Source: Mycobacteriales bacterium
GTDB taxonomy: Bacteria > Actinomycetota > Actinomycetes > Mycobacteriales > CADCTP01
Direction of reading: 5' to 3'
DNA length: 64,000 nucleotides
Assembly: GCA_035995165.1 (NCBI GenBank)
Contig: DASYKU010000124.1
Coordinates: forward strand, 1 to 64,000
In this document: positions 24,536-62,947 of the stretch, piece by piece
How the letters are laid out: each line of letters begins with the position of its first letter
Numbering within the stretch: position 1 is the first letter of the stretch
Position numbers and translations under genes: made by a program
The notes under the pieces: model-generated
Databases searched by the model: none
What the model saw: the letters and a program-made list of their open reading frames with translations, nothing else
What the model was told of the DNA's origin: nothing

Positions 24536-24809
24536 GTCAGAGTCCCCCGAGCCGGCGGCGGCACCGTACGGCGCCGACCTCGTTGCCGGCTGAACCCTAT
24601 GACGGCGCCCGCGACGCCTGGGCCGATTTGGTGAACCTTGCTAACCCCGGCACGGCCGGTCGACACGGCCCGTGACCACGGACGGGCTGTCCGCCCACGT
24701 CGACCTGTAATTCCTACTGAATTGGTCGATAACAGAGTCACGGAGAGTAGTTAAATTTTGGGCGACCTCTCGACACTCCCAGGCAAAATCTAAGTAATTC
24801 TCGATTTCG

Positions 24810-24858
24810 TTCACTGAGCGTCACAGCAGCGGCTAGGGTCGAGTTGCTCTTGGGGGGA
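24810..24858 (+). promoter_or_regulatory. Promoter and conserved 5' leader start of the giant secreted protein
   Basis: TTCACT (24810-24815), an 18-base spacer and TAGGGT (24834-24839) are followed seven bases later by GCTCTTGGGGGGA (24846-24858) at the expected transcript start. The same arrangement (TTCACA, 18, TATGTT, then the identical 13-mer) precedes the priming glycosyltransferase at 57431-57480. The rest of the 444-base gap 24536-24979 is locally AT-rich and holds no other gene. Confidence 0.55.
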
Positions 24859-24979
24859 ACTGTCCTCAGATCGTGCTGTCCGGACCGGATCGCAGGCATC
24901 AGTGGCACAGCCAAGAGCTCTGTCGGACACGGGTGGTCGGGGAGAGGCGCCGGAAGCGGCGCCCAGTGGGGGGTGGCTC

Positions 24980-27900: not shown

Positions 27901-30184
27901 CCAGCTGCTCAACGGCGCCACGGTGGTCGCGTCCTCGGTCACGGTCGGGGAGGGCGGCCTGGCCGCGACCCTGACGCCGTCGGCGGCGCTGGCGGCCGGG
28001 GTGACGTACACGGTCAGGATCAGCGCGACCGACCTGGCCGGGCACGCGATGACCACGCCGTACACGGGGACGTTCCGGACCGGGGCGGCACAGCCACCGG
28101 CCGGCACCTGTCCGTGCTCGCTGTGGAGCGACCAGCAGCAGCCGCAGGTGCCCTCGGCGGCCGACCCGAACCCGGTCGAGCTGGGGGTGAAGGTGACGCC
28201 CAGCAGCAATGGCTGGATCACCGGCGTCCGGTTCTTCAAGGGACCGGAGAGCACCGGCGTGCACACCGGCACGCTCTGGGACGCGGCCGGGCAGGCCCTG
28301 TCGACGGCGACGTTCACCAGCGAGTCGGCCACCGGCTGGCAGCAGGTGAGCTTCGACCCGGCGGTCCAGGTGACGGCGGGCACGACGTACGTGGCCAGCT
28401 ACCACTCCAACGGCGACTACTCCTACACAGCGAACTACTTCGCCACGGCCGCGACGACGTACGGTCCGCTGACGTCGCCGGTGAACGCCACCGCGACCGC
28501 GCCCAACGGCGTGTTCGCGTACGGGCCGGCCGGCACGTACCCGCGGTTCGGCACCGACGCGGCCAACAACTACTGGGTCGACGTGACGTTCCAGACGACG
28601 GCGCCACCGCCGCAGCCTCCGGTCGTGTCCGGCACGACGCCGGCCGCGGGGGAGACCGGCTCGGCGCTGAGCTCGCCGGTGACGGTGACGTTCAACAAGT
28701 CCGTGCAGCCGAGCACGCTCGGGTTCACGCTGAGCAGCAACGGCACCGCGGTGACCGGCACGACGGCGTACGACGACACGTCGCACACCGCGACGTTCAC
28801 ACCGTCGGCGTCGCTGGTGGCGGCCCGGGCGTACTCGGCCTCGGTGACGGCGACGAGCACGCTCGGCATGACGATGACGGCGCCGTACACGTGGTCGTTC
28901 AACACCGGCACGCCGGCGACCTGTCCGTGCACGCTGTACGGCACGGCGACACCGACGAACACGACCACCGACGACGCCGGTGACTACGAGCTGGGCGTGC
29001 GGTTCCGGTCCGACCAGGACGGGTTCGTCAACGGGGTGCGCTTCTACAAGGGCGCCGGCAACACCGGCACGCACACCGGCACGCTGTGGAGCACCGACGG
29101 GCAGGAGCTGGCCACGGCCACGTTCAGCGGCGAGAGCGCGTCGGGCTGGCAGACGGTCACGTTCGACACCTCGGTGCCGGTACAAGCCGGGGTCGACTAC
29201 ATCGCCTCCTACCACACGACGACCGGGCACTACGCCTTCGACGGCGGCTACTTCGCGCAGCACAATGCGAACGCGTCGCCGCTGCACGCGCTGGCGTCGA
29301 CCGGGGCGGCACCCAACGGCGTCTTCGCCGCGGGCGGCCACCTGTTCCCGGACCGCACGTTCGGGGAGACGAACTACTGGGTGGACGTGACGTTCTCGAC
29401 GACCCGGATCGACACCGTGCCGCCGAAGGTGAGCTCGGTGACGCCGGCCAACGGCGACACGTTCCAGGCGGCGGCCGTGAAGCCGACGGCGACGTTCAGC
29501 GAGCCGGTGTCGGCGGGGACGGTCGTCATGACGCTGTCCTCCCCGGCCGGCGCGGTGACCGGGACCGTGGCGTACGACGCGACGTCGCAGACCGCGACGT
29601 TCACGCCGTCGGCCGCGCTGGCGGGCAACACGACGTACACGGCCACGGCGAAGGCCAGTGACACCGCGGGCAATGCGATGGCCGCGGCGTTCTCCTGGAG
29701 CTTCACCACCGCGCCGGCGTCCGGGTGCCCGTGCACGTTGTTCGGGTCCGACCCGCCGACCGGGGCGGCCACCGACGACGCCAGCGACGTCGAGCTCGGG
29801 GCGAAGTTCACCTCGGACACCGGCGGGCAGGTCCGCGGGGTGCGGTTCTACAAGGCGGCCGGCAACACCGGCACGCACACCGGCACCCTGTGGTCGGCGA
29901 CCGGGACAGTGCTCGGCTCCGGGACGTTCAGTGGTGAGACGGCGACCGGGTGGCAGACGCTGACGTTCGCCACCCCGGTGACGATCACGGCCGGCACGCA
30001 GTACGTGGTCTCCTACCATGCGGGCAACGGGCACTACGCCGGGACGCCGCACTACTACGACGCCGGCTACGACAAGGCGCCGCTGCACGTACCGGCGTCC
30101 GGGGGCGTCTACCACGTGGGCGCCGGGTTCCCCGACAGCTCCTTCGGCGCCGCGAACTACTGGGTCGACCTGATCTTCGGCTGA
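24980..30184 (+). CDS. Giant secreted protein: dimethylformamidase-beta-like domain plus four DUF4082/Ig-like modules
   Basis: The 1,734-residue protein has a Sec signal peptide (about residues 1-29, ending SASA). An Ala/Lys/Pro-rich spacer leads to a domain of about 510 residues resembling the C-terminal part of N,N-dimethylformamidase beta subunits (RVDIYRVGYYGGDGAR, HDEYWSAGQR, SGNEVFWKTRFE). Next comes an Ig-like domain (about 674-770), then four DUF4082 domains (about 771, 1043, 1314 and 1582) each opening with CPC and separated by SbsA-type Ig-like domains. DUF4082 and Ig modules point to binding of an extracellular polymer. ATG 24980 is preferred over GTG 24902 because the signal peptide starts there. 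The promoter matches that of the polysaccharide priming enzyme, so a role on the exopolysaccharide is inferred; the reaction is unknown. Confidence 0.85.
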   Translation: MRVRAHSRWGIALALGALVLVTVPQSASAAPPSAPKATASAAPKATAPAAQKAATPAAKTPAKSTATPGKVDPKQKQPGTDADPPRAGIAGDLDNEKGSPGIHLPRSGGGSKVAAPVVAKNSAGQLAAGPTAAAAKAAVATNAATPAATAAADPCTGTTINAVACENSKPGTPDTTWDVVGSGDDGLAGFATDISVNVGTTVHFKVKATGAYRVDIYRVGYYGGDGARLMSSFTPQVPYPQTQPTCQKFADTGMMDCGNWAESASWAVPGTAVSGVYFARLTRLSNGAGSHIPFIVRNDASHSQVLFQTSDETWEAYNTWGDQSTAAKPNNWGPGLGNSLYLCNDACPAGSPKLYKGAYAVSYNRPFDTRTTPDGQDWMFAAEYPMIRFLERNGYDVSYTTDVDSDRSGALIKNHSMFMSNGHDEYWSAGQRANVEAARDAGVNLAFFSGNEVFWKTRFENSKAGPVSSYRTLVTYKDTHFDAQTDPTGVWTGTWRDPRFSPPGDGGKPENGLTGVAYMVDPPTDFNMVVPASFGKLRFWRNTALATMTSGSLTLANATLGYEFDADLDNGFRPTGLFHVTQQTENVQSKLQDYGNTVGPGTVTHSMTEYRAASGALVFGAGTVQWSFGLDGDHDGPASTANATQQQATINLLADMGAQPSTLMTGMVAATKSTDTTKPTSTISSAAHAVVATAYSITGTAADTGGVVGGIEVSTDSGSTWHPATGTTSWTYSYTATSPGTVTVLVRATDDSGNIQGTPTSKTLTVDPRTCPCSIFGSVTPDTPQVADATAYELGVRFRATVPGTISGIRFYKGANNTGTHTGTLWSNTGQQLATGTFSAESATGWQTLTFSSPVTVTANTTYVASYHTNTGFYANDPTGFTDKAAYSAPLFGLPDGLDGPNGVFHTGTSAFPASSVGGNNYFVDVVFNGDPSADTAPPAVASTTPQNTATSVPSNTTVTVDFNKPIAPSSLSFQLLNGATVVASSVTVGEGGLAATLTPSAALAAGVTYTVRISATDLAGHAMTTPYTGTFRTGAAQPPAGTCPCSLWSDQQQPQVPSAADPNPVELGVKVTPSSNGWITGVRFFKGPESTGVHTGTLWDAAGQALSTATFTSESATGWQQVSFDPAVQVTAGTTYVASYHSNGDYSYTANYFATAATTYGPLTSPVNATATAPNGVFAYGPAGTYPRFGTDAANNYWVDVTFQTTAPPPQPPVVSGTTPAAGETGSALSSPVTVTFNKSVQPSTLGFTLSSNGTAVTGTTAYDDTSHTATFTPSASLVAARAYSASVTATSTLGMTMTAPYTWSFNTGTPATCPCTLYGTATPTNTTTDDAGDYELGVRFRSDQDGFVNGVRFYKGAGNTGTHTGTLWSTDGQELATATFSGESASGWQTVTFDTSVPVQAGVDYIASYHTTTGHYAFDGGYFAQHNANASPLHALASTGAAPNGVFAAGGHLFPDRTFGETNYWVDVTFSTTRIDTVPPKVSSVTPANGDTFQAAAVKPTATFSEPVSAGTVVMTLSSPAGAVTGTVAYDATSQTATFTPSAALAGNTTYTATAKASDTAGNAMAAAFSWSFTTAPASGCPCTLFGSDPPTGAATDDASDVELGAKFTSDTGGQVRGVRFYKAAGNTGTHTGTLWSATGTVLGSGTFSGETATGWQTLTFATPVTITAGTQYVVSYHAGNGHYAGTPHYYDAGYDKAPLHVPASGGVYHVGAGFPDSSFGAANYWVDLIFG

Positions 30185-34741: not shown

Positions 34742-35368
34742 TCATCTCAGCGGGCGGGCCGGGTTGCCCACCCAGACCGCACCGGCCGGCACGTCCCGGG
34801 TCACGACGGACCCCATCCCGATCAGCGCGCCGGCCCCGACGGTGACCCCTTCGCGGACCAGGGCGCCCGACCCGACGTACGCGCCGCGCTCCAGCCGGAC
34901 CCCGCCGCCGAGCCGGACGCCGGCCGCGATCGTGCAGAAGTCCTCGACCACGTCGTCGTGGGTGATCACCACCTGCGGCATCACCGCGACGTGGTCGCCG
35001 ACCGACGCGGCCGCGGTGACGACGACGCCGGCCAGCAGGACGGTGCCGCGGCCCACGGTCGCGGTGGACGCGACGACGGCGGACGGGTGCAGAACCTGTC
35101 CGTACCGGTCGCGGGGGAGGGCGAGCCGCCCGGTGATCCGCCGCCGGCTGTCGAAGTCGCGCGGGCTGCCGGTGCAGACCACGACCGCCGCGTCCGGGTA
35201 CGCCGCGACCTCGGCCGAGCCGCCGAGCACCGGGACCCCGTCGACGGCGGTGTTCCAGCGGTCCGGGTCGTCGTCGAGATGCCCGAGCAGCTCGAGGTGA
35301 GCGGCGCGGGCGGCCTCGGCGGTCTCCCGCGCGAAGCCGCCCGCCCCGATGAGCAGGAGCGCGGTCAC
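34742..35368 (-). CDS. PglD/NeuD-family sugar O/N-acetyltransferase
   Basis: This 208-residue protein has the N-terminal nucleotide-sugar-binding Rossmann-like domain of the PglD/NeuD group (LLLIGAGGFARETAEA, LGHLDDDPD). A left-handed beta-helix follows (VLHPSAVVASTATVGRGTVLL, HVAVMPQVVITHDDVVEDF) with the catalytic His in ITHDD, closing AVWVGNPARPLR. PglD acetylates the 4-amino group of UDP-4-amino-sugars; the DegT enzyme at 37490 is a plausible partner. The GTG start overlaps the stop of the upstream secreted-protein gene (GTGA), an unusual pairing of a cytosolic and an exported product. Confidence 0.85.
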   Translation of the reverse strand: MTALLLIGAGGFARETAEAARAAHLELLGHLDDDPDRWNTAVDGVPVLGGSAEVAAYPDAAVVVCTGSPRDFDSRRRITGRLALPRDRYGQVLHPSAVVASTATVGRGTVLLAGVVVTAAASVGDHVAVMPQVVITHDDVVEDFCTIAAGVRLGGGVRLERGAYVGSGALVREGVTVGAGALIGMGSVVTRDVPAGAVWVGNPARPLR

Positions 35369-37209
35369 CGCGCCTGGTACACCCGGTGCTGGTACGCCCC
35401 GAAGTGGTCGGTGATCGTGCCGCCCTTGACGGTGAGCGAGCGGCCCTCGCCGACCACGTCGATCACCGTGCCGTCCGGCACCGGGACCTTGACGGTCAGG
35501 TCGGTCGCACCGGACATCGTGTGCGACTCGTTGCCGTCGGCCTGGGCCAGCATCCAGAGCTTGCCGCCGACGTCCTTCGCCAGCACGGTGCCGGGCACCG
35601 CGGTCGAGGAGGTGACGGTGACCCCGGCGACGGTCGGCGCGTTCAGGGCCGGCGCGTTGGTCTTGATCCAGGAGTTCACCGAGGCCAGCCGGGTCTTCAC
35701 CGGCACGGCCGCCGCGTCGGTCAGCACCGCGTACTCACCGCCGCCGCCGTCGAAGTCGTGGATGAAGTACTCCACACCGCGGCCGCCGTGGACCAGCACG
35801 TTGAACACGGCCTGCTCGGCCTCGTCCGGGGTGATCCGGTCGTTGTTGCCGGAGAACGGGCGGGTCGTCTCGACGAAGCCCCACGCGGCCTTGCCCGGGC
35901 ACATCTGCTGCTGGCGGTCGATGCCGAGGCCGTAGACCCAGGCGCCGGAGTGCGGGCCGCCGGCCTCCCAGGGGTCGGTGTAGCCGTAGATGTCGGTCGA
36001 GGTGATGTCGATGTTGCGGCAGTAGAGCTGCAGGTCAGCGGTCTTGCCGGCGTACACCATGCCCTTGGTGAAGTTGCCGTACGTCGGCCGCTCCGGGTCC
36101 TGCTGCTTGGCCTGCTGCGCGTCCGCGTCGTAGGTCGAGGCGGCGACGTTCCCCTCGGGCTCGTCCGGCTGGATCATGTTGCCGCGGTTGGCCGAGCCGC
36201 CCGGGAAGCTGTCCGCGTCCGGGGTGGCGGCGCCGACGGTGTACATGCCCTGTGCCTTGGCGGCAGCCAGCGCCTGCGCGGTCCACGGCGAGTCGCCGTA
36301 GTTGTAGAGCCCGACGAACGTGTTCGCGCCCCAGGCCTGGTAGTCCGCCGCGGTCGCACCCTTGTCCGGCCGCTGCGGGGTCTGGTCGAACACGCTGACC
36401 GGGAAGAAGCCCGGGTCGGTCGGGAAGCTGGTCTTCCACTTCGCGTAGTAGTCCGGGCCGACGTACGCGGGGTCGTGCGGCAGCGCACCGGCCGGGGGAG
36501 CGCCGGTCGCGCTCCCGCTCGGCGTCGTCGGGGCCGGCGTGGTCGGCTTCGCGGTCGGCGACACCGGTGACATCGAGGGCGCACCCGGCGCGGTCGTCGT
36601 CGCGGACGGGGCGGGCGCGGGCGTCGTGGTCGGCGCCGGGGCCGTGTCGCCGGAGGCCGCGAACAGCGGGGAGACGAAGTACTCGGACGCGGCATACCGC
36701 TGCCGCGGGAAGGCCTCCGCCGCGCCGTACCGGTAGACGCCGGCCCGGGCCGGAACGGCCAGGTCACCGACCGTCCGGGCGGCGGCGAGGCTGGCGTCGT
36801 CGGAGTTGTAGCTGCCGCGGTCGGTGAAGTAGCTCGCGACGTACCGGGTGCCGGCGGTGACCGGGACCGGCGTGGCGAACGTGGTGCTCACCCAGCCCTG
36901 GCCGGCCGCGGCCCGCGTGGTGGCCAGCCGCTTGCCGCCGGTGGACCACAGGGTCACGGCCGAGGGGCGGCTCTGCGCGCTGCCGCGGAAGAACTGCACC
37001 CCGCGGACCGTGCCGTTCTTCGCGGTGCTGAAGACCACACCGACGGTCACCGCCTGCCGGTCGCCGTCCACCTGCCCGGACGGGCTGGCGCCGGTGTAGA
37101 GCGACTGGATCCTCGGCTGCTCGGCCCCGGGCAGGGCCACCGCGGCGGTGACGCCGGCAGTGGCACCGACCACCACCGCCGCCGTCGTCAGGGCTACGAC
37201 ACGCTTCAT
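35365..37209 (-). CDS. Secreted DUF4082 protein with TIM-barrel hydrolase-like domain
   Basis: The 614-residue product has an N-terminal signal peptide (VALTTAAVVVGATAGV), a DUF4082 domain at about residues 30-185 (VQFFRGSAQSR, GTRYVASYFTDRG), a Thr/Pro-rich linker of about 60 residues, and a C-terminal domain of about 370 residues. That domain looks like a TIM-barrel glycoside hydrolase (YQAWGANTFVGLYNYGDSP, MIQPDEPEGN, DITSTDIYGYTDPW, GRGVEYFIHDFDGGGGE), with acidic residues at strand ends as candidate catalysts. It may trim or depolymerise the polysaccharide made here. ATG 37209 fits the signal peptide, with AGAGGAG upstream. No GH family could be named from sequence alone. Confidence 0.8.
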   Translation of the reverse strand: MKRVVALTTAAVVVGATAGVTAAVALPGAEQPRIQSLYTGASPSGQVDGDRQAVTVGVVFSTAKNGTVRGVQFFRGSAQSRPSAVTLWSTGGKRLATTRAAAGQGWVSTTFATPVPVTAGTRYVASYFTDRGSYNSDDASLAAARTVGDLAVPARAGVYRYGAAEAFPRQRYAASEYFVSPLFAASGDTAPAPTTTPAPAPSATTTAPGAPSMSPVSPTAKPTTPAPTTPSGSATGAPPAGALPHDPAYVGPDYYAKWKTSFPTDPGFFPVSVFDQTPQRPDKGATAADYQAWGANTFVGLYNYGDSPWTAQALAAAKAQGMYTVGAATPDADSFPGGSANRGNMIQPDEPEGNVAASTYDADAQQAKQQDPERPTYGNFTKGMVYAGKTADLQLYCRNIDITSTDIYGYTDPWEAGGPHSGAWVYGLGIDRQQQMCPGKAAWGFVETTRPFSGNNDRITPDEAEQAVFNVLVHGGRGVEYFIHDFDGGGGEYAVLTDAAAVPVKTRLASVNSWIKTNAPALNAPTVAGVTVTSSTAVPGTVLAKDVGGKLWMLAQADGNESHTMSGATDLTVKVPVPDGTVIDVVGEGRSLTVKGGTITDHFGAYQHRVYQAR

Positions 37210-37404
37210 ATGGTGCAGGCTCCTCTGTCGTGGCCGGGGGTGGCCGCGAACCTTCGGGCTTGTCGGCGAAGTTTCTAGCAGGTCGTATGACGATCCGCGA
37301 CCGACGGTCACAATGGGTAAGTCGGACCGCACGGAGCGCTGTAAGGGGACATGTTTGTACGACCCGTACAGGACCGTCCATCGGTGAACTCCGCCGCAAT
37401 TTCT

Positions 37405-37437
37405 CCGGTTCGCACCCGATCACCAGGCGTGAACCGG
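37405..37437. promoter_or_regulatory. Inverted repeat in the divergent intergenic region
   Basis: CCGGTTC (37405-37411) and GAACCGG (37431-37437) are perfect 7-bp arms 19 bases apart in the 280-bp gap 37210-37489 between the divergent secreted-protein and aminotransferase genes. It may be an operator for both directions. The rest of the gap shows a G-run with AA just before the aminotransferase start and nothing gene-like. Confidence 0.35.
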
Positions 37438-37489
37438 GAGACTGGGGTACGCGGGCGGGGGGTCGTCCGTGGGTGTCCAAGGGGGAACC

Positions 37490-38653
37490 GTGTCTTTCAG
37501 TTCGATCCCGGTCATGCTGCCCTGCCTCGGTGAGGACGAAGCCGAGGCAGCCGCGGCGGCCGTCCGTTCCGGGTGGGTGGCGCAGGGGCCGCGGGTCGCG
37601 GCCTTCGAGCGCGCCTTCGCCGAGCGGGTCGGGGCCGCGCACGGCGTGGCCGTCTCGTCCTGCACCACCGGCCTGCACCTCGCTCTGCACGTGCTCGGCC
37701 TCGGGCCGGGCGACGAGGTGATCGTGCCATCGTTCTCGTTCATCGCGACGACGAACTGCGTGGTCTACACCGGTGCGACGCCGGTCTTCGCCGACGTCGA
37801 CCCGCTCACCGGAAACCTCACGCCGGAGACGGTGGAGGCTGTCCGGACACCCGCGACCCGGGCGGTCATCGCGGTGCACCAGGCCGGCGTGCCCGCCGAC
37901 GTCGACGCGCTGCGCGCGGTCCTCGACCCGTACGGGGTGACGGTGGTCGAGGACGCCGCCTGCGCGGCCGGCTCGACCTACCGCGGCCGTCCGGTCGGAG
38001 CCGGCGCCGGGCTGGCGGCCTGGTCGTTCCACCCGCGCAAGCTGCTCACCACGGGCGAGGGTGGGATGGTCACCACCGACGACGCCGAGCTCGCGGCCCG
38101 GCTGCGGCGGCTGCGCGAGCACGGCATGAACGTCAGCGCCGCGGACCGGCACACGGCCGGCAAGCCGGTGCTGGAGGCGTACCTGGAGGTCGGGTTCAAC
38201 TACCGGATGACCGACATCCAGGCCGCGGTCGGGCTGGTGCAGCTGTCCAAACTGGACGGTCTGGTGGCCGACCGGCGGGCCAGGGCGGCGCGCTACCAGG
38301 AGCTGCTGGCCGCGGTCCCGGGTGTGCGCGCGGTGACCGACCCGGCGTACGGCACCACGAACTACCAGTCGTTCTGGGTCGAGCTGGCCGCGGACTTCCC
38401 GGCCTCCCGCGACGACGTGCTGGCGGCGATGAACGCCGAGGGCATCTCGCCCCGGCGCGGGATCATGGCCGCGCACCTGGAGCCGGCGTATCAGGGGCAC
38501 CCGCACGGGCCTCTTCCGGTGACCGAGCGGCTCACCCGCACCTCGCTGGTGCTGCCGCTGCACCATCTGCTGACCGACGGGGACCAGGAGCGGATCGTGG
38601 GAGTGCTGCAGCGGCTCGGGGAAGCCCGCCTCGTCGCGGGAGGGGTCCGATGA
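37490..38653 (+). CDS. DegT/DnrJ/EryC1-family aminotransferase
   Basis: This 387-residue PLP enzyme aminates a keto-nucleotide sugar using glutamate. Key segments are GVAVSSCTTGLHLAL (phosphate binding), GDEVIVPSFSFIATTN, VVEDAACAAGST with the PLP-binding Asp, and FHPRKLLTTGEGGM with the Schiff-base Lys. NYRMTDIQAAVGLVQL follows. GTG 37490 has AAGGGGG seven bases upstream. It opens a chain of genes with four-base overlaps running to 45,835. The PglD-like acetyltransferase at 34742 could act on its product (4-amino sugar type). Confidence 0.92.
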   Translation: MSFSSIPVMLPCLGEDEAEAAAAAVRSGWVAQGPRVAAFERAFAERVGAAHGVAVSSCTTGLHLALHVLGLGPGDEVIVPSFSFIATTNCVVYTGATPVFADVDPLTGNLTPETVEAVRTPATRAVIAVHQAGVPADVDALRAVLDPYGVTVVEDAACAAGSTYRGRPVGAGAGLAAWSFHPRKLLTTGEGGMVTTDDAELAARLRRLREHGMNVSAADRHTAGKPVLEAYLEVGFNYRMTDIQAAVGLVQLSKLDGLVADRRARAARYQELLAAVPGVRAVTDPAYGTTNYQSFWVELAADFPASRDDVLAAMNAEGISPRRGIMAAHLEPAYQGHPHGPLPVTERLTRTSLVLPLHHLLTDGDQERIVGVLQRLGEARLVAGGVR

Positions 38654-49793: not shown

Positions 49794-49920
49794 CTGCTGT
49801 GGGGCCGCCGGAGCGGGCCGCGATCAGCCACGCTCGCCGGCGGGTGCGGCCGCGCCAGCCGGAGCGGGCCGGGATCAGCGACGCTCGCCGGCGGGTGCCG
49901 CCGCACCAGCCGGAGCCGCG
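49782..49920. repeat. 51-bp tandem repeat at the gmhB 3' end
   Basis: Nearly three copies of a ~51-bp unit beginning gctcgccggcggg and ending gggatcagcgac lie at 49782-49831, 49832-49882 and 49883-about 49920. The first copy shares its start with the right arm of the terminator. The third copy encodes the C-terminal end of GmhB, where 51 bp equals 17 codons. Confidence 0.7.
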
Positions 49921-50498
49921 TGCGCGGCCGGAGCCGCGGGCGCCGCCGCAGCGGCCGGTGTCACGTGACCCGGCGGCAGCCCGCCGGCGAGCAGCTCGTC
50001 GACCGCACCGGCCAGATCGGCCCGGAGTAGGCCGGCCGCGGTCGCCGTCCCGGGCGGCCCGAGCCGCACCGTCCGTACCCCGGCCGCGATCCCGGCGGCG
50101 ACGTCGCTCTCGGCGTCGCCGACCAGCACCGCGCCGCCGGGCGAGATGCCCGGGTCGTCGGCCATCGCCCGCAGCAGCAGCCCCGGCCGCGGCTTGCGGC
50201 AGTCGCAGCCGGCCTCGTGCGGGCACATGTACGAAGCGTCCAGGCGGGCGCCGTCGGCGGCCAGCAGCGCCCGCAGCCGGTCCGCGACCGCCGCGTACCC
50301 GGCCGGGGTCAGCAGCCCACGGGCGAGGCCGCGCTGATTGGTCACCAGCACCACCCGGACGCCGGCCTCGTTCAGCCGCCGCACCGCCGAACCGGCGCCG
50401 GGCAGCAGCACCACGGCGTCCGGCGACGTGACGTAGGAACCCTCGGGCGCCTTGACGTTGAGCGTGCCGTCCCGGTCGAGGAACGCGGTCCGGATCAA
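49875..50498 (-). CDS. gmhB: D-glycero-D-manno-heptose 1,7-bisphosphate phosphatase
   Basis: GmhB removes the C7 phosphate of heptose bisphosphate. The 207-residue HAD enzyme has AFLDRDGTLN (nucleophile Asp), LVTNQRGLARG, the zinc-loop Cys/His set in MCPHEAGCDCRKPRPG and VLVGDAESDVAAG. The TTG start at 50498 overlaps the GmhA stop (TTGA). The C-terminal ~30 residues are almost pure Ala/Pro and arise from a tandem DNA repeat; they are not part of the HAD fold. Confidence 0.92.
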   Translation of the reverse strand: MIRTAFLDRDGTLNVKAPEGSYVTSPDAVVLLPGAGSAVRRLNEAGVRVVLVTNQRGLARGLLTPAGYAAVADRLRALLAADGARLDASYMCPHEAGCDCRKPRPGLLLRAMADDPGISPGGAVLVGDAESDVAAGIAAGVRTVRLGPPGTATAAGLLRADLAGAVDELLAGGLPPGHVTPAAAAAPAAPAAHAAPAGAAAPAGERR

Positions 50499-51088
50499 GA
50501 CCCGGCCAGGTCCCGCTCGACGATCTCGCAGAGGGTGTGGCCGAGCAGCATGCACAGCTCCTGCACCCGGGGCGTGTCGTCGGTCGGAACCCGGACGCAG
50601 ACGTCCACCAGTCCGGACAGCTTTCCGCCACCGGCCCCGGTGAACACCACCGTCGCCAGCCCGGCCGCGCCCGCCGCCTCCAGCCCGCGCACCACGTTGG
50701 GGGAGTTGCCGCTGGTGGACAGTCCGACCGCGACGTCCCCGGGCCGTCCCAGCGCCCGCACCTGCCGGGAGAACGTCTCCTCGTACGAGTAGTCGTTGCC
50801 GATCGCGGTCATCGCGGCGGTGTTGTCGGCCAGGCTCACCGCCGCCAGCGGCCGCCGCTCCAGGTAGAAGCGCCCGAGCAGCTCGGCCGCGAGGTGCCCG
50901 GCGTCCGTGGCGGAGCCGCCGTTGCCGAAGAACAGCACCTTGCCGCCGCCGCTCAGCGCGCGCACGACGAGCTCGGCCGCCTCCGCGGTGGCGCGCACCG
51001 CGTCGGACTCCAGCAGCCGCTGCTTGGCCTGCAGGCTGTCGGTCACCCGCTGCCGCAGCAGCGCCTCGCCCTCGGTCACGCCCGCCAT
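50495..51088 (-). CDS. gmhA: Sedoheptulose 7-phosphate isomerase
   Basis: GmhA converts sedoheptulose 7-phosphate to D-glycero-D-manno-heptose 7-phosphate. The 197-residue SIS-domain protein has KVLFFGNGGSATDAGHLAAELLGRF, ALTAIG-type segment AAMTAIGNDYSYEETFSRQ, the phosphate loop GLSTSGNSPNVV and DDTPRVQELCMLLGHTLCEIVE with the catalytic Glu and His. It overlaps the kinase gene by 13 bases at its start and gmhB by four at its end. Confidence 0.94.
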   Translation of the reverse strand: MAGVTEGEALLRQRVTDSLQAKQRLLESDAVRATAEAAELVVRALSGGGKVLFFGNGGSATDAGHLAAELLGRFYLERRPLAAVSLADNTAAMTAIGNDYSYEETFSRQVRALGRPGDVAVGLSTSGNSPNVVRGLEAAGAAGLATVVFTGAGGGKLSGLVDVCVRVPTDDTPRVQELCMLLGHTLCEIVERDLAGS

Positions 51089-52086
51089 GTCGTCAGCCCT
51101 CTCGGCTCGAACGCGAACGGTGTCACGACGCCGCCCATCCGGGTCAGCGCCTCGGCCAGCCGGTGCTGGCGGGTGAAGTCGCAGTAGAACAGGATGTAGC
51201 CACCGCCGCCCGCGCCGGTCACCTTTCCGCCCAGTGCGCCTTCCCGCATCGCGACGTCGTACGCCTCCTCGATGAACTCGGTGGCGATCAGCGGCGACAT
51301 CCGCTTCTTCTGCTTCCAGGCCTCGCCCAGCATCGAGCCGAACTCGGACAGCTCGCCGCGCAGCAGCGCCGACTTCATCGCGACCGCGAGCTCCTTCTGC
51401 GCCCGCAGGCCCTCCAGGGTCTCGGAGTCGCCGCCGGTGACGCGGGCGGTCTGGTCCTCGATGATGCGGGAGGACTGCCGGGTGGTGCCCGTGTAGCAGA
51501 GCATCAGGTTCAGCTGCAGCTCGTGCATCGTCGAGTCCTTGATCCGCAGCGGGTTGACGATCACGCGCTCGCCGAACTCGATGAAGTTGAAGCCGCCGAA
51601 CGTGGCCGCGTAGTGGTCCTGGTGCCCGCCGCGGATCTGCAGGTCCTCCCGCTCGGCCTGGTACGCCAGGTCCGCGATCTCGTACTCGGTCAGCGGCAGC
51701 CGGTGGTATTCGCGCAGCAGGCCGACCAGCGCCACCAGCATCGTCGAGGAGGATCCGAGACCCGACCCGGGCGGGGCGTTGGAGCGCAGCACCATGTCGA
51801 ATCCGGAGCTGTCCCCGCCGAGCCGCCGGACGGCCGCCTTGACCAGGTCCAGCTTCCCGTCGAAGTCGGGGATGTCGGAGAGGTCGTAGTCCAGCGACAT
51901 GTCCAGGTCGTGCGAGTGCACGCTGACCCGCGAGTCCGGCCGCGGCGTCAACGAGCCGTACGCGTACTTGTCGATCGTCGCGCTGAGCACGACGCCGCCC
52001 TCGTTCTCCGGGAACGGCGAGACGTCGGTGCCGCCGCCGGCGAAGCTCAGCCGCAGCGGCGCCCGGGACCGCACGACGCGGCTCAC
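51076..52086 (-). CDS. hddA: D-glycero-alpha-D-manno-heptose 7-phosphate kinase
   Basis: HddA phosphorylates heptose 7-phosphate at C1. The 336-residue GHMP kinase has RAPLRLSFAGGGTDVSPF at its N-terminus, the ATP loop SNAPPGSGLGSSSTMLVAL and REDLQIRGGHQDHYAATFGG. The C-terminal GHMP motif is GGKVTGAGGGGYILFYC. The alpha-anomer kinase implies a GDP-activated heptose, as in S-layer glycans and in the mycobacterial gmhA-gmhB-hddA cluster. The last enzyme, the guanylyltransferase HddC, is not in the window. ATGA overlap with the upstream WecG-like gene. Confidence 0.93.
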   Translation of the reverse strand: MSRVVRSRAPLRLSFAGGGTDVSPFPENEGGVVLSATIDKYAYGSLTPRPDSRVSVHSHDLDMSLDYDLSDIPDFDGKLDLVKAAVRRLGGDSSGFDMVLRSNAPPGSGLGSSSTMLVALVGLLREYHRLPLTEYEIADLAYQAEREDLQIRGGHQDHYAATFGGFNFIEFGERVIVNPLRIKDSTMHELQLNLMLCYTGTTRQSSRIIEDQTARVTGGDSETLEGLRAQKELAVAMKSALLRGELSEFGSMLGEAWKQKKRMSPLIATEFIEEAYDVAMREGALGGKVTGAGGGGYILFYCDFTRQHRLAEALTRMGGVVTPFAFEPRGLTTWRA

Positions 52087-52892
52087 GATGACCGCCGGGC
52101 GCGCCGCCCGGCCAGCGCGCTGCGGGCCAGCAGGCCCAGCGCGTACGGCGCGTCGTGCACCAGGTACCGCCGGGCCAGCCGGCGCGGCTCACTGACCAGC
52201 CGGAAGACCCACTCCGCGCCGATGCGGCGCAGCCACTGCGGGGCCCGGGCGACCTCGCCCGCGGCGAAGGCCAGGCTCGCCCCGGAGCCGATGAACCAGG
52301 TCCCGCTGAACTCGTCCACCAGCCAGGAGATCAGCTTCTCCTGCTTGGGGAAGCCGAGCCCGCAGAACACGATGTCCGGCTGAGCCGCGGCCAGCGCGGC
52401 CCGGATCGCGGCCAGCTCGGCCGGGTCGTTCTCGAAGCCCAGCGGCGGGCAGTGCGTCCCGGCCACCCGCAGCTCCGGCGCGCCGGCCGCGCGCACGTCC
52501 TCGGTCAGCGCGGCCACGGCCCGCTCGGCCACACCGGGCGCCCCGCCGAGCAGGAAAATCGATCTACCACTGCGGGCCGCCGCCTTGGACAGCGACCAGA
52601 TCAGGGTGGAACCGGGCACCCGCGGCGGCAGCGGCGTGCCGGCCAGCCGGGCCGCCCACTCCAGCGGCGCCCCGTCGGCGACGACGAGCGTGGCCTGCCC
52701 GACCAGTCGCCGGACCTGCGGGTCGCGCTCGATCTGGCGCAGCACGTCGACGTTGGGGTTGACCAGCCAGCCGCCCTTGCCGATCTCGAGGGCGGACATG
52801 ACGTGCGCGATGGTGCCGGCCTCGTCGAGGGCGTGCAGCTCGACGCCGGCGAGTTGGGTGGTGCGGAGCGCGGGCTCCACGGACATGGTCAC
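52083..52892 (-). CDS. WecG/TagA/CpsF-family (GT26) glycosyltransferase
   Basis: This 269-residue protein has GGWLVNPNVDVLRQIERD, the conserved VVADGAPLEWAARLAGTPLPPRVPGSTL stretch in overlapping motifs, FLLGGAPGVAERA and VFCGLGFPKQEKLI. GT26 enzymes transfer the second sugar (for example ManNAc or ManNAcA) onto a lipid-linked amino sugar at the membrane. It is the only second-step candidate of this type here. GTG 52892 is favoured over ATG 52886 because GGAGG lies six bases upstream. Confidence 0.9.
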   Translation of the reverse strand: MTMSVEPALRTTQLAGVELHALDEAGTIAHVMSALEIGKGGWLVNPNVDVLRQIERDPQVRRLVGQATLVVADGAPLEWAARLAGTPLPPRVPGSTLIWSLSKAAARSGRSIFLLGGAPGVAERAVAALTEDVRAAGAPELRVAGTHCPPLGFENDPAELAAIRAALAAAQPDIVFCGLGFPKQEKLISWLVDEFSGTWFIGSGASLAFAAGEVARAPQWLRRIGAEWVFRLVSEPRRLARRYLVHDAPYALGLLARSALAGRRARRSS

Positions 52893-57184: not shown

Positions 57185-57577
57185 CGGCACAGTCTCCCCG
57201 ACGCCACAAGGCGGCGCGAGCTGCCCCAACGGGTGGTCGGCGGTGTGGGTACCGGACCGCCTCGGTGGCTCTGAGTGGTTGTGTGTATTGTCCTTTCGGC
57301 CGCCCGGAGCAGCGACGTGGAGTTCCTGGGCGACCTCCGCTTGTTGCACCGAGTGGTGACTACATAGAGTAACCAAATTGCCCGGGTGGACAGTGTTCTC
57401 ACGCCGACATCAGAGTTTTTTATTGGACGCTTCACACTGCGTGACCTAAGCCGCTATGTTTGGGCTCGCTCTTGGGGGGACCCGACGTGCCGCTACCGCG
57501 GCCCGGCGGGCCGAGGGCGTCATGCGAAAGCGGTCCGGTGGTGCTCCGCGCACGGCCGGACGGGGGGTGGGGTGTAC
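57185..57577. other. 393-base divergent intergenic region between ppc and the priming transferase
   Basis: The segment holds an AT-rich island (about 57360-57430, with a run of six T) and the promoter described at 57431-57480. About 97 bases of G-rich leader precede ATG 57578. Frames crossing it upstream of both starts are low-complexity and have no start support, so no additional gene is called. Confidence 0.6.
57431..57480 (+). promoter_or_regulatory. Promoter and conserved 5' leader start of the priming glycosyltransferase
   Basis: TTCACA (57431-57436), an 18-base spacer and TATGTT (57455-57460) precede GCTCTTGGGGGGA (57468-57480) at the expected transcript start. The 13-mer is identical to the one at 24846-24858. 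The spacers share CACTG-n-CGT-s-AC (cactgcgtgac here, cactgagcgtcac there), possibly a regulator site. Confidence 0.55.
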
Positions 57578-59041
57578 ATGAGCGTCCTCGACCGGTCGGC
57601 CCGGTTCGTCGACGACGGCGTGGGCGTCGGCGTTGCCCGGCGCCGGGGTTGGGAGCGGCGCTACGCGCGCCTGCTGGTCGGCGTGGATGCGCTGGTCGGG
57701 ATCGCGGCTGCCGCGGCGGCCTACGAGGTCCGGTTCCAGGACTCGTTCTCCTGGGCGTACGCGTACGCGGCGGCCAGCCTGGCCGCGCCGGTCCTCTGGG
57801 TCTGCGCGATCGCCCTGGCCGGCGGGTACGAGGCCCGGATCCTCGGGCTCGGCTCCGAGGAGTTCCAGCGGATCTTCCGCGCGTTCGTCGGTCTGACCGC
57901 GACCGTCGGCTTCGTGTCGTACGCGTTGCACGCCGACGTGGCCCGCGGGTACATCGTGCTCGCGCTGCCGATGGCGATGGTGCTGTCCTTCTTCGGGCAC
58001 TACGCGCTGCGCAAGCGTCTGCACCACGGCCGCTCCAGCGGCCGGTACACGTACCGGGTGATCGCGGTCGGCGGCGAGGAGTCGGTCGCCGACCTCACCG
58101 CCCAGCTGCGCCAGGAGCGCTACTGCGGCATGCAGGTCGTCGGGGCCTGCCTGTCCGCCGGCGACGGCGCCCGGCTGGTCGGGCTCGGCGTCCCGCTGCT
58201 CGGCGGGCTGGACGACGTCGCCGACGCGGTGCGGGCCTCCGGGGCCGACACCGTCGCGGTGGCCGCCGGCGCCAGCGTCGGCCCGGCCCGGCTGCGCCGG
58301 CTGTCCTGGCAGCTGGAGGGCACCGACACCGACCTGGTGGTGGCGCCCGGCCTGATGGAGGTGGCCGGTCCCCGGCTGCACATCCGGCCGATGACCGGTC
58401 TGCCGCTGCTGCACGTCGAGGAGCCGGAGTTCGCCGGCGCCCGCCGGGTGGCCAAGGCGATCGTGGACCGCTCGCTGGCCGCGCTCTGCGTGCTGATGTT
58501 CCTGCCGCTGATGATCGGCCTCTGGCTGGCGGTGCGGCTGTCCAGCCCCGGCCCGGCGGTGTTCCGCCAGGTCCGGACGGGTCAGGACGGCCGCGAGTTC
58601 ACCCTGCTCAAGTTCCGCTCCATGTACCTGGACGCGGACAAGCGCAAGGCCGAGCTCGAGCACCGCAACGAGCGGGCCGAGGGGCTGCTGTTCAAGATCC
58701 GCGACGACCCCCGGGTCACCCCGGTGGGCCGGTTCCTGCGGCGTTACTCGCTGGACGAGCTGCCCCAGCTGATCAACGTCATGCAGGGCAGGATGTCGCT
58801 GGTCGGGCCCCGGCCGCCGCTGCCCGAAGAGGTCGCGCTCTACCAGGACGACGTGCGCCGCCGCCTGCTGGTCAAGCCCGGGCTCACCGGGCTCTGGCAG
58901 ATCAGCGGGCGCAGCGACCTCGACTGGGACGAGTCGGTCCGCCTCGACCTGCGGTACGTGGAGAACTGGTCGTTCACGCTCGACCTGATGATCCTGTGGA
59001 AGACGATGTCGACCGTGGTCCGGGGGCGCGGGGCGTACTGA
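57578..59041 (+). CDS. Polyprenyl-phosphate hexose-1-phosphate transferase (WbaP/WcaJ-like)
   Basis: This is the initiating enzyme: it transfers sugar-1-phosphate from a nucleotide sugar to undecaprenyl phosphate. The 487-residue protein has four N-terminal membrane helices, a Rossmann-like middle domain (YRVIAVGGEESVADLTAQL) and a C-terminal bacterial sugar transferase domain from about residue 290. That domain shows DRSLAALCVLMFLPLMIGLWLA, FRQVRTGQDGREFTLLKFRSM, RRYSLDELPQLINVMQGRMSLVGPRP and KPGLTGLWQISGRSDL. ATG 57578 is chosen because the first helix pair follows at normal distance. Promoter shared with the giant secreted protein. Confidence 0.94.
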   Translation: MSVLDRSARFVDDGVGVGVARRRGWERRYARLLVGVDALVGIAAAAAAYEVRFQDSFSWAYAYAAASLAAPVLWVCAIALAGGYEARILGLGSEEFQRIFRAFVGLTATVGFVSYALHADVARGYIVLALPMAMVLSFFGHYALRKRLHHGRSSGRYTYRVIAVGGEESVADLTAQLRQERYCGMQVVGACLSAGDGARLVGLGVPLLGGLDDVADAVRASGADTVAVAAGASVGPARLRRLSWQLEGTDTDLVVAPGLMEVAGPRLHIRPMTGLPLLHVEEPEFAGARRVAKAIVDRSLAALCVLMFLPLMIGLWLAVRLSSPGPAVFRQVRTGQDGREFTLLKFRSMYLDADKRKAELEHRNERAEGLLFKIRDDPRVTPVGRFLRRYSLDELPQLINVMQGRMSLVGPRPPLPEEVALYQDDVRRRLLVKPGLTGLWQISGRSDLDWDESVRLDLRYVENWSFTLDLMILWKTMSTVVRGRGAY

Positions 59042-59161: not shown

Positions 59162-59908
59162 GTGGATGATGCCCAGCTGGCCGAGGAACTGGCCGAGCGG
59201 GCCGGTGCCCTGCTGCTGGAACTGCGGGCAGGCGGTGCGGACGGCAAGACCGGGGACAAGGAGTCCGACCGGTTCCTGCTCGCCGAACTGGCCGCCCGCC
59301 GGCCCGGTGACGCCGTGCTCTCCGAGGAGAGCCCTGACCCCGCGGCCCGGCACACCGCCGAGCGGGTCTGGATCGTCGACCCGCTGGACGGCACCCGCGA
59401 GTTCGGCGAGGCCGGCCGGCCGGACTGGGCCGTGCACGTGGCGCTCTGGGTCTCGGGCGAGCTCGCCTGCGGTGCGGTCGCGCTGCCCGCGATCGGCGCG
59501 CTCCGCTCGTCCCGCACCCCGGTCGCCCCGCCCGCGCGCGACGCCGTCCGGCGGATCGCGGTGAGCCGGACCCGCCCGCCGGCCTGGGCGTACCCGGTGG
59601 CCGAGGAGCTCGGGGCCGAGCTGGTCGGGATGGGCTCGGCCGGGGCCAAGGTGGACGCCGTGCTGCGCGGCGAGGTCGACGCCTACTTCCACGACGGCGG
59701 CCAGTACGAGTGGGACTCGGCCGCGCCGGTCGCGGTCGCGCACGCGGCCGGGCTGCACGCCAGCCACGTCGACGGGTTGCCATTGCGTTATAACCAGCCC
59801 GATCCGTGGTCGCCCGATCTGCTCGTCTGCGACGCTGGGGTGGCCGGCCGGGTCATCGGGCTCATCGGGCGGCACCGGGAGACGACCGAGAGAGCAGGAA
59901 CGCGATGA
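59162..59908 (+). CDS. cysQ: 3'(2'),5'-bisphosphate nucleotidase CysQ
   Basis: CysQ hydrolyses PAP, the by-product of sulfotransferase and PAPS reductase reactions, to AMP. The 248-residue protein is of the inositol-monophosphatase fold: DKESDRFLLAEL, SEESPD (metal Glu), WIVDPLDGTREFGE and a C-terminal YEWDSAAPVAVAHAAG with the last metal Asp. GTG 59162 is the best start, though its Shine-Dalgarno (GAGAGG) is 13 bases away. ATGA overlap with cysD. Its presence beside a sulfotransferase fits removal of inhibitory PAP. Confidence 0.92.
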   Translation: MDDAQLAEELAERAGALLLELRAGGADGKTGDKESDRFLLAELAARRPGDAVLSEESPDPAARHTAERVWIVDPLDGTREFGEAGRPDWAVHVALWVSGELACGAVALPAIGALRSSRTPVAPPARDAVRRIAVSRTRPPAWAYPVAEELGAELVGMGSAGAKVDAVLRGEVDAYFHDGGQYEWDSAAPVAVAHAAGLHASHVDGLPLRYNQPDPWSPDLLVCDAGVAGRVIGLIGRHRETTERAGTR

Positions 59909-60816
59909 CGGACCCCCAGCGGTATCAGCTGAGCCAGCTGCAGACCCTGGAAGCGGAAGCGATCTTCATCATCCGCGAGGTGGTGGCCGAGTTCGAGCGG
60001 CCGGTCCTGCTGTTCTCCGGTGGCAAGGACTCGATCGTCATGCTCCGGCTGGCGGAGAAGGCCTTCTACCCGGCGCGCGTCCCGTTCCCGGTGATGCACG
60101 TGGACACCGGGCACAACTTCGACGAGGTGCTGGCGTTCCGGGACCGGCGGGCCGAGGAGCTCGGCGTGCAGCTGCTGGTGGCCAGCGTGCAGGAGGCCAT
60201 CGACAACGGCTCGGTGACCGAGCCGCCGGACGGCACCCGCAACCGGATCCAGACGCCGGTCCTGCTCGACGCGCTGGAGAAGCACCGCTTCACCGCGATC
60301 TTCGGCGGCGCCCGGCGGGACGAGGACAAGGCCCGGGCCAAGGAGCGGATCTTCTCCTTCCGCGACGACTTCGGCCAGTGGGACCCGAAGAACCAGCGCC
60401 CCGAGCTGTGGAGCCTCTACAACGGCCGCATCCACGAGGGCGAGAGCATCCGGGTCTTCCCGCTGTCGAACTGGACCGAGCTCGACATCTGGCAGTACGT
60501 CCAGCAGGAGAGCATCGAGCTGCCCTCCATCTACTACGCGCACGACCGCGAGGTCTTCGAGCGGCGCGGCATGCTCTTCGGCGTCCACCCGGTCTGCCAG
60601 CCCCGGGACGGCGAGGAGGTCGAGGTCCGGCGGGTGCGCTACCGCACCGTCGGCGACGCCAGCCTCACCGCGGCCGTGGAGTCCGACGCGGACACCGTGG
60701 AAAAGGTGATCGACGAGGTCGCCACCACCCGGATCACCGAGCGCGGCGCGACCCGGGGCGACGACAAGTTCAGCGAGGCCGCCATGGAAGACCGCAAGCG
60801 TGAGGGCTACTTCTAA
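59905..60816 (+). CDS. cysD: Sulfate adenylyltransferase subunit 2
   Basis: CysD is the ATP-sulfurylase subunit that forms APS from sulfate and ATP. The 303-residue protein has the PP-loop VLLFSGGKDSIVMLRLAEKAF, FGGARRDEDKARAKERIFSFRD, LSNWTELDIWQYVQQE and the terminal KREGYF. The ATG overlaps the cysQ stop; the cysN start follows immediately. Confidence 0.97.
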   Translation: MTDPQRYQLSQLQTLEAEAIFIIREVVAEFERPVLLFSGGKDSIVMLRLAEKAFYPARVPFPVMHVDTGHNFDEVLAFRDRRAEELGVQLLVASVQEAIDNGSVTEPPDGTRNRIQTPVLLDALEKHRFTAIFGGARRDEDKARAKERIFSFRDDFGQWDPKNQRPELWSLYNGRIHEGESIRVFPLSNWTELDIWQYVQQESIELPSIYYAHDREVFERRGMLFGVHPVCQPRDGEEVEVRRVRYRTVGDASLTAAVESDADTVEKVIDEVATTRITERGATRGDDKFSEAAMEDRKREGYF

Positions 60817-62064
60817 ATGGACATCCTGAGGTTCGCGACGGCGGGGTCCGTCGACGACGGCAAGAGCACGCTCATCGGGCGGCTCCTGTACGACACGAAG
60901 ACCGTCTTCGCCGACCAGATCGAGGCGGTCGAGCGCGTCTCCAAGGAGCGCGGCGAGGAGCACGTCAACCTGGCGCTGCTCACCGACGGCCTGCGGGCCG
61001 AGCGGGAGCAGGGCATCACGATCGACGTCGCGTACCGCTACTTCGCCACGCCCAAGCGCAAGTTCATCATCGCCGACACCCCGGGGCACATCCAGTACAC
61101 CCGCAACATGGTGACGGGGGCCTCGACCGCGGATCTGGCACTGGTGCTGGTCGACGCCCGCAACGGGATCGTCGAGCAGAGCCGGCGGCACGCGTTCCTG
61201 GCCACCCTGCTCGAGGTGCCGCACCTTGTCCTCTGCGTGAACAAGATGGACCTCGTCGGCTATGACCAGGCGGTCTACGACCGGATCCACGACGAGTTCA
61301 CCGCGTTCGCGACCAAGCTGCACGTGCCGGACCTGACCGTGATCCCGGTGTCCGCCCTCAACGGCGACAACGTGGTCACCCGTTCGGAGAACATGCCCTG
61401 GTACGACGGGCCGAGCCTGCTGCACCACCTGGAGAACCTGCACGTCGCCAGCGACCGCAACCTGATCGACGTCCGGTTCCCGGTGCAGTACGTGATCCGG
61501 CCGCAGTCCGACGCCTGGCACGACTACCGGGGCTACGCCGGCCAGGTCGCCAGCGGCGTGCTCAAGCCCGGCGACGACGTCATGGTGCTGCCCAGCGGGC
61601 TGCGCACCCGGATCGCCGCGATCGACACGATGGACGGCCCGGTCGAGGAGGCGTACGCGCCGATGTCGGTCACGGTGCGGCTGGAGGACAACCTCGACGT
61701 CTCCCGCGGCGACCTGATCTGCCGGCCGAACAACGCGCCGATGGTCACCCAGGACATCGAGGCGATGGTCTGCTGGATGACCGACAAGCCGCTGCGGCCG
61801 GGCGCCAAGCTGGCGATCAAGCACACCACCCGGTCGGCCCGGGCCGTCGTGCGGGACCTGCGCTACCGGCTGGACGTCAACACGCTGCACCGGGACGAGG
61901 ACGCGACCGAGCTCGGGCTCAACGACATCGGCCGGGTGCGGCTGCGCACGACCCAGCCGCTGTTCGCCGACGAATATCGCCGGAACCGGACCACGGGCGG
62001 GTTCATCCTCGTCGACGAGGCGACCAACGCCACGGCCGGCGCGGGCACCATCCTCGAGGGCTGA
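60817..62064 (+). CDS. cysN: Sulfate adenylyltransferase subunit 1 (GTPase)
   Basis: CysN hydrolyses GTP to drive APS formation by CysD. The 415-residue EF-Tu-like GTPase has AGSVDDGKSTLIGRLLYDTK, EREQGITIDVAYRYF, DTPGHIQYTRNM and NKMDLVGY, then beta-barrel domains. No APS-kinase (CysC) domain is fused, unlike mycobacterial CysNC. No separate cysC is in the window, so PAPS formation needs a kinase elsewhere. It begins on the base after the cysD stop. Confidence 0.97.
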   Translation: MDILRFATAGSVDDGKSTLIGRLLYDTKTVFADQIEAVERVSKERGEEHVNLALLTDGLRAEREQGITIDVAYRYFATPKRKFIIADTPGHIQYTRNMVTGASTADLALVLVDARNGIVEQSRRHAFLATLLEVPHLVLCVNKMDLVGYDQAVYDRIHDEFTAFATKLHVPDLTVIPVSALNGDNVVTRSENMPWYDGPSLLHHLENLHVASDRNLIDVRFPVQYVIRPQSDAWHDYRGYAGQVASGVLKPGDDVMVLPSGLRTRIAAIDTMDGPVEEAYAPMSVTVRLEDNLDVSRGDLICRPNNAPMVTQDIEAMVCWMTDKPLRPGAKLAIKHTTRSARAVVRDLRYRLDVNTLHRDEDATELGLNDIGRVRLRTTQPLFADEYRRNRTTGGFILVDEATNATAGAGTILEG

Positions 62065-62087
62065 CCTCCCGGCGCTGCCCGCCCGTC

Positions 62088-62123
62088 CCGACCCCGTTCC
62101 GGCTCACCGCCGGGCGGGGTCGG
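62088..62123. terminator. Terminator between convergent cysN and sulfotransferase genes
   Basis: CCGACCCCG (62088-62096) and CGGGGTCGG (62115-62123) form a 9-bp stem with an 18-base loop in the 73-base convergent gap. Confidence 0.6.
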
Positions 62124-62137
62124 TGCCGTCCAGGCCC

Positions 62138-62947
62138 TCAGCGGTGCTCGGGGACCGGGAACGGCTCGGCGAGCGAGAGGTCGCGCATGCTGTAGCCGTA
62201 GCGCCGGGCGCGTTCCTCGTAGGCGCGGACGAGCCGGTGGTAGCGCAGGAACGGCAGCGGGGCCCGGGACGAGGCCCACTGGCCCCATTGGGCCGCGTAC
62301 GAGCTGCTGCGGTGGCCCTGCAGGGTCTCCGGCGGGATCGGGCCGTCCAGGCCCAGGAACCGGCCGATGCCGTCCAGGGTCCGCTCCGGCTGCCCGACCA
62401 GGTCCTCGTACTTGACCACGTGCAGGCGCCGGATCGCCGGCGCGTCCGCGGCGAACAGGTCGTGGGCCCGGAACCAGTGCGCGGCCAGCCGCTTCATGGT
62501 CATCTTGCGGGCCCACTTGCGGGTGGACAGCGTGACGATCACCGGGTGCCGGACGACCATGACGAAATAGGCGTCCGGAAACAGCTCCTGCAGGAACCGG
62601 GTCATGATCAGGTTCGGCGGGCTCTTCTCCACCAGCACCGGCCGGCTCAGGTCCCAGTACGGCTTCCACTGCTCCAGCAGCGTCGCCGCCGACTCCTTGC
62701 CGACGTACGGCGAGGTCTCGGTCAGGTGCGCCGCGGGGCTGAAGGCGAAGTGGCCGGCGCCGCCGTAGTCGCGGACCCGGGGGTAGACGGTCTGCAGGTG
62801 CTGACCCTCGTCCTCCCGGGCGCCGGTCTCGACGAAGCCACTGACCTGGGGATGTGTCGCCAGGGTCCGCGCCAGCGGGGTCGTCCCGCTGCGGTGCAGC
62901 CCGCCCACGAACACGAGGCGGTGATCGTCCACGCCCAGTTCCCCCAC
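62138..62947 (-). CDS. PAPS-dependent sulfotransferase family protein
   Basis: The 269-residue protein begins with the 5'-phosphosulfate-binding loop in LVFVGGLHRSGTTPLARTL, has LVEKSPPNLIMTRFL and the 3'-phosphate-binding segment VMVVRHPVIVTLSTRKWA. Later VVKYEDLVGQPERTL matches the carbohydrate sulfotransferase family. It transfers sulfate from PAPS to a hydroxyl, here probably of the polysaccharide or its precursor. It is cytoplasmic, so sulfation would precede export. TACGTA lies seven bases upstream of GTG 62947, again a near-leaderless start. The convergent cysQDN operon supplies APS and removes PAP. Confidence 0.88.
   Translation of the reverse strand: MGELGVDDHRLVFVGGLHRSGTTPLARTLATHPQVSGFVETGAREDEGQHLQTVYPRVRDYGGAGHFAFSPAAHLTETSPYVGKESAATLLEQWKPYWDLSRPVLVEKSPPNLIMTRFLQELFPDAYFVMVVRHPVIVTLSTRKWARKMTMKRLAAHWFRAHDLFAADAPAIRRLHVVKYEDLVGQPERTLDGIGRFLGLDGPIPPETLQGHRSSSYAAQWGQWASSRAPLPFLRYHRLVRAYEERARRYGYSMRDLSLAEPFPVPEHR

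Follow-up and report, generated by a model that had tools for sequence, protein, structure and literature searches.

The window analysed here, a stretch of 64,000 nt in which every position below is given, carries an exopolysaccharide locus (a Wzx/Wzy cluster) flanked by two genes on the + strand, one at each end. The gene at 24980-30184 encodes a giant, predicted secreted protein of 1734 aa with a DMFA2_C-like domain, DUF4082 and Big_5 repeats, and an N-terminus that resembles a signal peptide. The gene at 57578-59041 encodes a priming glycosyltransferase (Bac_transf, PF02397, with CoA_binding_3), for which a search for named relatives returned only distant matches of Firmicutes/Bacteroidetes type. 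The locus includes a Wzx-type flippase gene at 40805, the gene for a Wzy_C protein at 45957, several glycosyltransferase genes, and genes for DegT aminotransferases, SIS, GHMP-kinase and HAD proteins and a WecG-type transferase. The HAD, SIS and GHMP-kinase genes adjoin that of the WecG-type transferase (49875-52892), which suggests a heptose-type sugar. Downstream of the priming transferase are a PAPS-reductase-domain/GTPase pair resembling CysD/CysN and a sulfotransferase gene; together with an inositol-monophosphatase-family gene these occupy 59162-62932 and suggest sulfation, so that the polymer may be a sulfated exopolysaccharide.

The priming transferase and DUF4082 genes also occur as a pair in other genomes of the order. 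In genome G007 the orthologous genes are 17 bp apart on one strand behind a single copy of the promoter described below, forming one operon, and the DUF4082 protein is 50% identical over 1362 aligned positions. The pair also abuts in G056 and lies close together in G002, G029, G014 and G028. This adjacency makes the functional link between the two genes stronger than an initial sequence-only reading of the window had it. In our genome, G001 and G007 the transferase has a divergent neighbour, a phosphoenolpyruvate-carboxylase-like gene recognised by sequence inspection. In G002 (L088:4949) and G029 (L094:13453) a long gene divergent from the priming transferase occupies the position of this gene, with a TNAC-N5-GTNA sequence 93 bp upstream of it.

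Both genes in the window are preceded by a predicted core promoter on the + strand. That of the glycosyltransferase gene (57431-57460) consists of a -35 hexamer TTCACA (57431-57436), an 18-bp spacer and a -10 hexamer TATGTT (57455-57460), and that of the DUF4082 gene (24810-24839) of TTCACT (24810-24815), an 18-bp spacer and TAGGGT (24834-24839). The same 13-mer, GCTCTTGGGGGGA, follows at the predicted transcript start of each, at 57468-57480 and 24846-24858 on the + strand. The sequence-only reading had placed this arrangement at 57431-57480 and 24810-24858, and hexamers, spacers and 13-mer were all found as described. It had further described a shared spacer element, CACTG-n-CGT-s-AC; the sharing held, but the register did not, since alignment of the two promoters at TTCAC gives TTCAC-N5-GTSAC as their common part.

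A genome-wide motif search singled out the same two promoters. Scanning of the whole genome (5,368,498 bp in 162 contigs) with TTCACN3GCGTNACN3AGCNGCTANGNT yielded 2 matches at up to 3 mismatches, both of them these promoters, and 0 in the reversed control. The orthologous promoter of G007 served as an independent query against 144 kb of the contig, where it ranked the two sites first and second (24/30 and 23/30), with the next-best match at 19/30. Because the whole promoter aligns, as checked with this independent query, the pair is not a random coincidence. The claim that two functionally linked genes carry a related promoter is thus supported, and fits co-regulation. A large regulon with this exact promoter was rejected, since in 200 genomes of the order outside our own and G007 there were 5 matches at 2 mismatches against 6 in the reversed control, as rare as chance. 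Likewise, searching 399 genomes of the order with a profile of four aligned promoters (our two and those of G001 and G007) brought up nothing beyond these four.

We identified the most conserved part of these promoters as a candidate BldD-type operator, accompanied by a second box 72-73 bp upstream that the sequence-only reading had missed. The box nearer the start, box B, lies in the glycosyltransferase promoter at 57431-57445 (+ strand, TTCACACTGCGTGAC), over the -35 hexamer and the 5' spacer, and is a perfect TNAC-N5-GTNA with a CWG core, which we take to be an extension of the BldD box. Box B of the DUF4082 promoter (24810-24824, + strand, TTCACTGAGCGTCAC) also fits TNAC-N5-GTNA, with one mismatch in the extended core. 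Across the four aligned promoters, the columns of box B that never vary read T-C-A-C-N5-G-T-N-A and contain all the specified bases of the BldD box as published, 5'-TNAC(N)5GTNA-3' (PMC4151990). Box B fits in our two promoters, in G007 and in G001. It lies over the predicted -35, a position suited to act on transcription. In G001 the core promoter has strongly diverged and the -35/-10 spacer is 17 bp, yet both half-sites of box B are kept.

The upstream box, box A, agrees with 5 of the 6 specified positions at 57359-57373 (+ strand, ACTACATAGAGTAAC; 72 bp upstream of box B) in the glycosyltransferase promoter and at 24737-24751 (+ strand, GTCACGGAGAGTAGT; 73 bp upstream) in the DUF4082 promoter. 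A scan for weaker copies placed box A of G007 (ACTACGGAGAGTTAT, again 5 of 6) 73 bp from box B, and that of G001 (GTCACCCCCAGTGAT), the only full fit and an exact TNAC-N5-GTNA, 73 bp upstream of box B. The distance thus varies only from 72 to 73 bp, while identity between the boxes is only about 33-40%. The three weaker box As, in our two promoters and G007, are related by descent, so that the independent support comes mostly from G001: with a local box density of 8.7e-5 per bp, an exact second box would fall by chance within +/-1 bp of this distance with a probability of about 3e-4. TNAC-N5-GTNA is short enough to occur by chance, and in 144 kb of our contig 5 of its 10 occurrences fall in coding sequence; the 5 intergenic ones amount to a density 6 times that in coding sequence (p = 0.007).

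A BldD ortholog, 71% identical to S. coelicolor BldD, is present in the genome (G000:C76:16680-17156). The protein carries a BldD-like_C domain (PF21179) and the sequence RGD-X8-RGED, which fits RXD-X8-RXXD, the c-di-GMP signature of BldD (PMC4151990). There are 12 GGDEF matches in the same genome, so both a BldD with this signature and candidate diguanylate cyclases are present in the organism. BldD orthologs are also found in G001 and G007.

We then considered the box across the order, with several tests run on the same data, so that their p-values lend support but do not decide the matter. The regions upstream of 25 priming-transferase genes of other genomes (including the second such gene of G007) held TNAC-N5-GTNA 9 times against 1.9 expected, and 0 of 300 shuffles reached 9. 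With two more genes added, the N5 spacing occurred 10 times, compared with a mean of 3.1 for the other spacings from N1 to N11. A strict form of the box, TNACNCWGNGTNA, was enriched 3.8-fold over the reversed control (569/151) in 48 genomes with BldD and 1.7-fold (163/96) in 13 without it, a comparison confounded by the ancestry of the genomes. The enrichment was greater with BldD in a per-genome test (Mann-Whitney p = 0.006), which we prefer to the pooled Fisher value of 4e-7 because the latter treats sites as independent. The enrichment upstream of priming transferases in other families suggests a BldD link wider than one genome. We do not claim a regulon list from the strict box, because many of its 28 sites in three genomes fall inside genes. 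In G040, where BldD was not found, a perfect strict box is located 38 bp upstream of a 500-aa gene near a DUF4082 gene (L092:2916); it is either read by another regulator or due to chance.

The main rival for these boxes is the OmpR-type response regulator MtrA, whose half-site is related and which could read them in place of BldD. The S. coelicolor MtrA sequence K-T-R-A-C-C-N5-G-T-K-A-C-N resembles TTCAC-N5-GTSAC, and MtrA binds the bldD promoter, where one site has a spacing one nucleotide shorter (PMC5650626). GTNAC-like half-sites are thus common to MtrA sites and to our boxes. However, AC and GT are separated by six bases in MtrA repeats (PMC5650626) but by five, the BldD spacing, in all four promoters; MtrA sites are direct repeats where ours are inverted; and MtrA prefers G or A at the third base, where all four box Bs (TTCAC/CTCAC) have C. 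None of the four box Bs contains the MtrA direct repeats. Upstream of other priming transferases, occurrences peak at the inverted N5 arrangement (10), compared with 5 at N6 and 0 for GTNAC-N6-GTNAC. We therefore regard recognition by MtrA as unlikely. It is also rather improbable that only a core promoter is shared, read by a housekeeping or alternative sigma factor, with TTCAC...GTSAC reflecting sigma contacts and common descent and no repressor involved. The hexamers and 18-bp spacing are good promoter-like features and the promoters are clearly related. Against this, there are conserved bases inside the -35/-10 spacer, well beyond the -35 hexamer recognised by sigma; the -10 of G001 is shifted by one base without loss of the box; and each promoter has its second box 72-73 bp upstream, the sequence in between being little conserved. 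A recent chance duplication of a promoter fragment, devoid of functional meaning, might be suspected from two related copies inside one 33-kb cluster. This we consider highly improbable: identity between our two promoters is down to 21/57 in the spacer separating the boxes, but is 20/30 from box B to the -10 and 13/13 in the 13-mer, and the same operator and core-promoter parts are retained in the orthologous promoter from another family.

The sequence-only reading had interpreted the 13-mer as a leader element, with the transcript leader starting with GCTCTTGGGGGGA acting as the shared regulatory element. The 13-mer is identical and similarly placed at both sites and exact nowhere else in the genome, where the whole-genome scan found these two copies and one copy with 1 mismatch inside a histidine-kinase gene. 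The 13-mer starts 7 nt past one -10 and 8 nt past the other, so that it plausibly begins at the predicted +1. A repeated 13-mer is by itself weak evidence, since 1193 distinct 13-mers repeat on the + strand of the window; it is the aligned whole promoter that carries weight. In the DUF4082 leader, positions 24911-24918 form a perfect complement to the first 8 nt of the 13-mer (from 24846), 65 nt away (null about 7e-4), and pairing of the two could close a 5'-terminal stem spanning 24846-24918. The glycosyltransferase leader permits the equivalent stem only with two G-U pairs, as do 26% of shuffled leaders. G001 retains an altered variant of the 13-mer, GACTCCGGGGGGAGC, but the orthologous promoter of G007 does not have it. 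The full leaders fold no better than shuffled sequence (z of -0.65 and -1.06 for our two and +0.24 for G001), and no Rfam family matched. A riboswitch or other known leader was rejected on these grounds, and the combination of conserved sequence and better-than-shuffle fold expected of a structured cis-acting leader RNA was not found, which leaves the leader interpretation very unlikely. We also rejected an upstream ORF using the G-run as ribosome site, as the candidate starts sit in overlapping shadow frames and do not belong to conserved short peptides.

The reading that we favour, and consider reasonably probable, is that an operator-promoter for BldD-(c-di-GMP) has been duplicated and serves the exopolysaccharide locus. 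The two sites are related copies of one predicted operator-promoter of about 100 bp. Conserved in it are a core promoter of sigma-70 type, the BldD-type box that spans the -35 and a weaker box 72-73 bp upstream, a distance of about seven helical turns. BldD would bind here and would probably repress the locus. At high c-di-GMP, BldD dimerised by c-di-GMP would occupy box B and obstruct RNA polymerase at the -35. This block may be reinforced by a second dimer bound to box A, perhaps through contact on the same helix face. As c-di-GMP falls, both promoters would open together, so that the first sugar transferase and its partner, the secreted DUF4082 protein, would be made together. The ancestral state was probably one of neighbouring genes under one promoter, as in G007, the genes having come to lie at the ends of the cluster in our genome with one copy each. 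A more elaborate version is possible, though doubtful: the operator would be dedicated to exopolysaccharide and would hold two cooperating BldD dimers seven turns apart, with a c-di-GMP tetramer closing each dimer and possibly a small loop between them. The whole would have been copied to a second locus when the operon split, and c-di-GMP would repress polysaccharide synthesis in this lineage.

In other bacteria, c-di-GMP usually activates exopolysaccharide synthesis. The second messenger is tied to polysaccharide output in those systems as in our proposal, but the route proposed here would act on transcription through BldD-type operators, with repression expected at high c-di-GMP and thus the opposite of the usual sign. 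The sign is not certain, since some BldD targets are activated rather than repressed (PMC7026642). The predicted operators resemble those of Streptomyces, such as bldM and whiG (PMC4151990), in having a TNAC-N5-GTNA box in the promoter region, in a genome that has a BldD with the RXD-X8-RXXD signature and GGDEF proteins. Unlike the Streptomyces operators, their targets are a priming transferase and a giant DUF4082 protein instead of sporulation regulators, and they consist of two boxes at a fixed 72-73 bp, predicted from sequence. In the literature searched, which does not include the complete BldD target lists of Streptomyces and Actinoplanes, we found no statement of BldD control of exopolysaccharide genes. 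The protein is chiefly known as a c-di-GMP-controlled brake on sporulation and antibiotic genes. If the operators are real, the same brake would set when an actinomycete commits to exopolysaccharide, tying slime or capsule production to the c-di-GMP signal, and they would offer a testable handle on DUF4082 proteins, which are mentioned just once, in passing, in the literature searched.

Two further TNAC-N5-GTNA matches are present within the cluster, at 37307-37321 (GTCACAATGGGTAAG) and 37420-37432 (TCACCAGGCGTGA). Both are intergenic, between a second DUF4082 gene on the - strand (35365-37209) and a DegT aminotransferase gene that starts at 37577 on the + strand. This interval (37210-37576) is a third promoter region of the cluster, and may be under the same regulator as the promoter pair.
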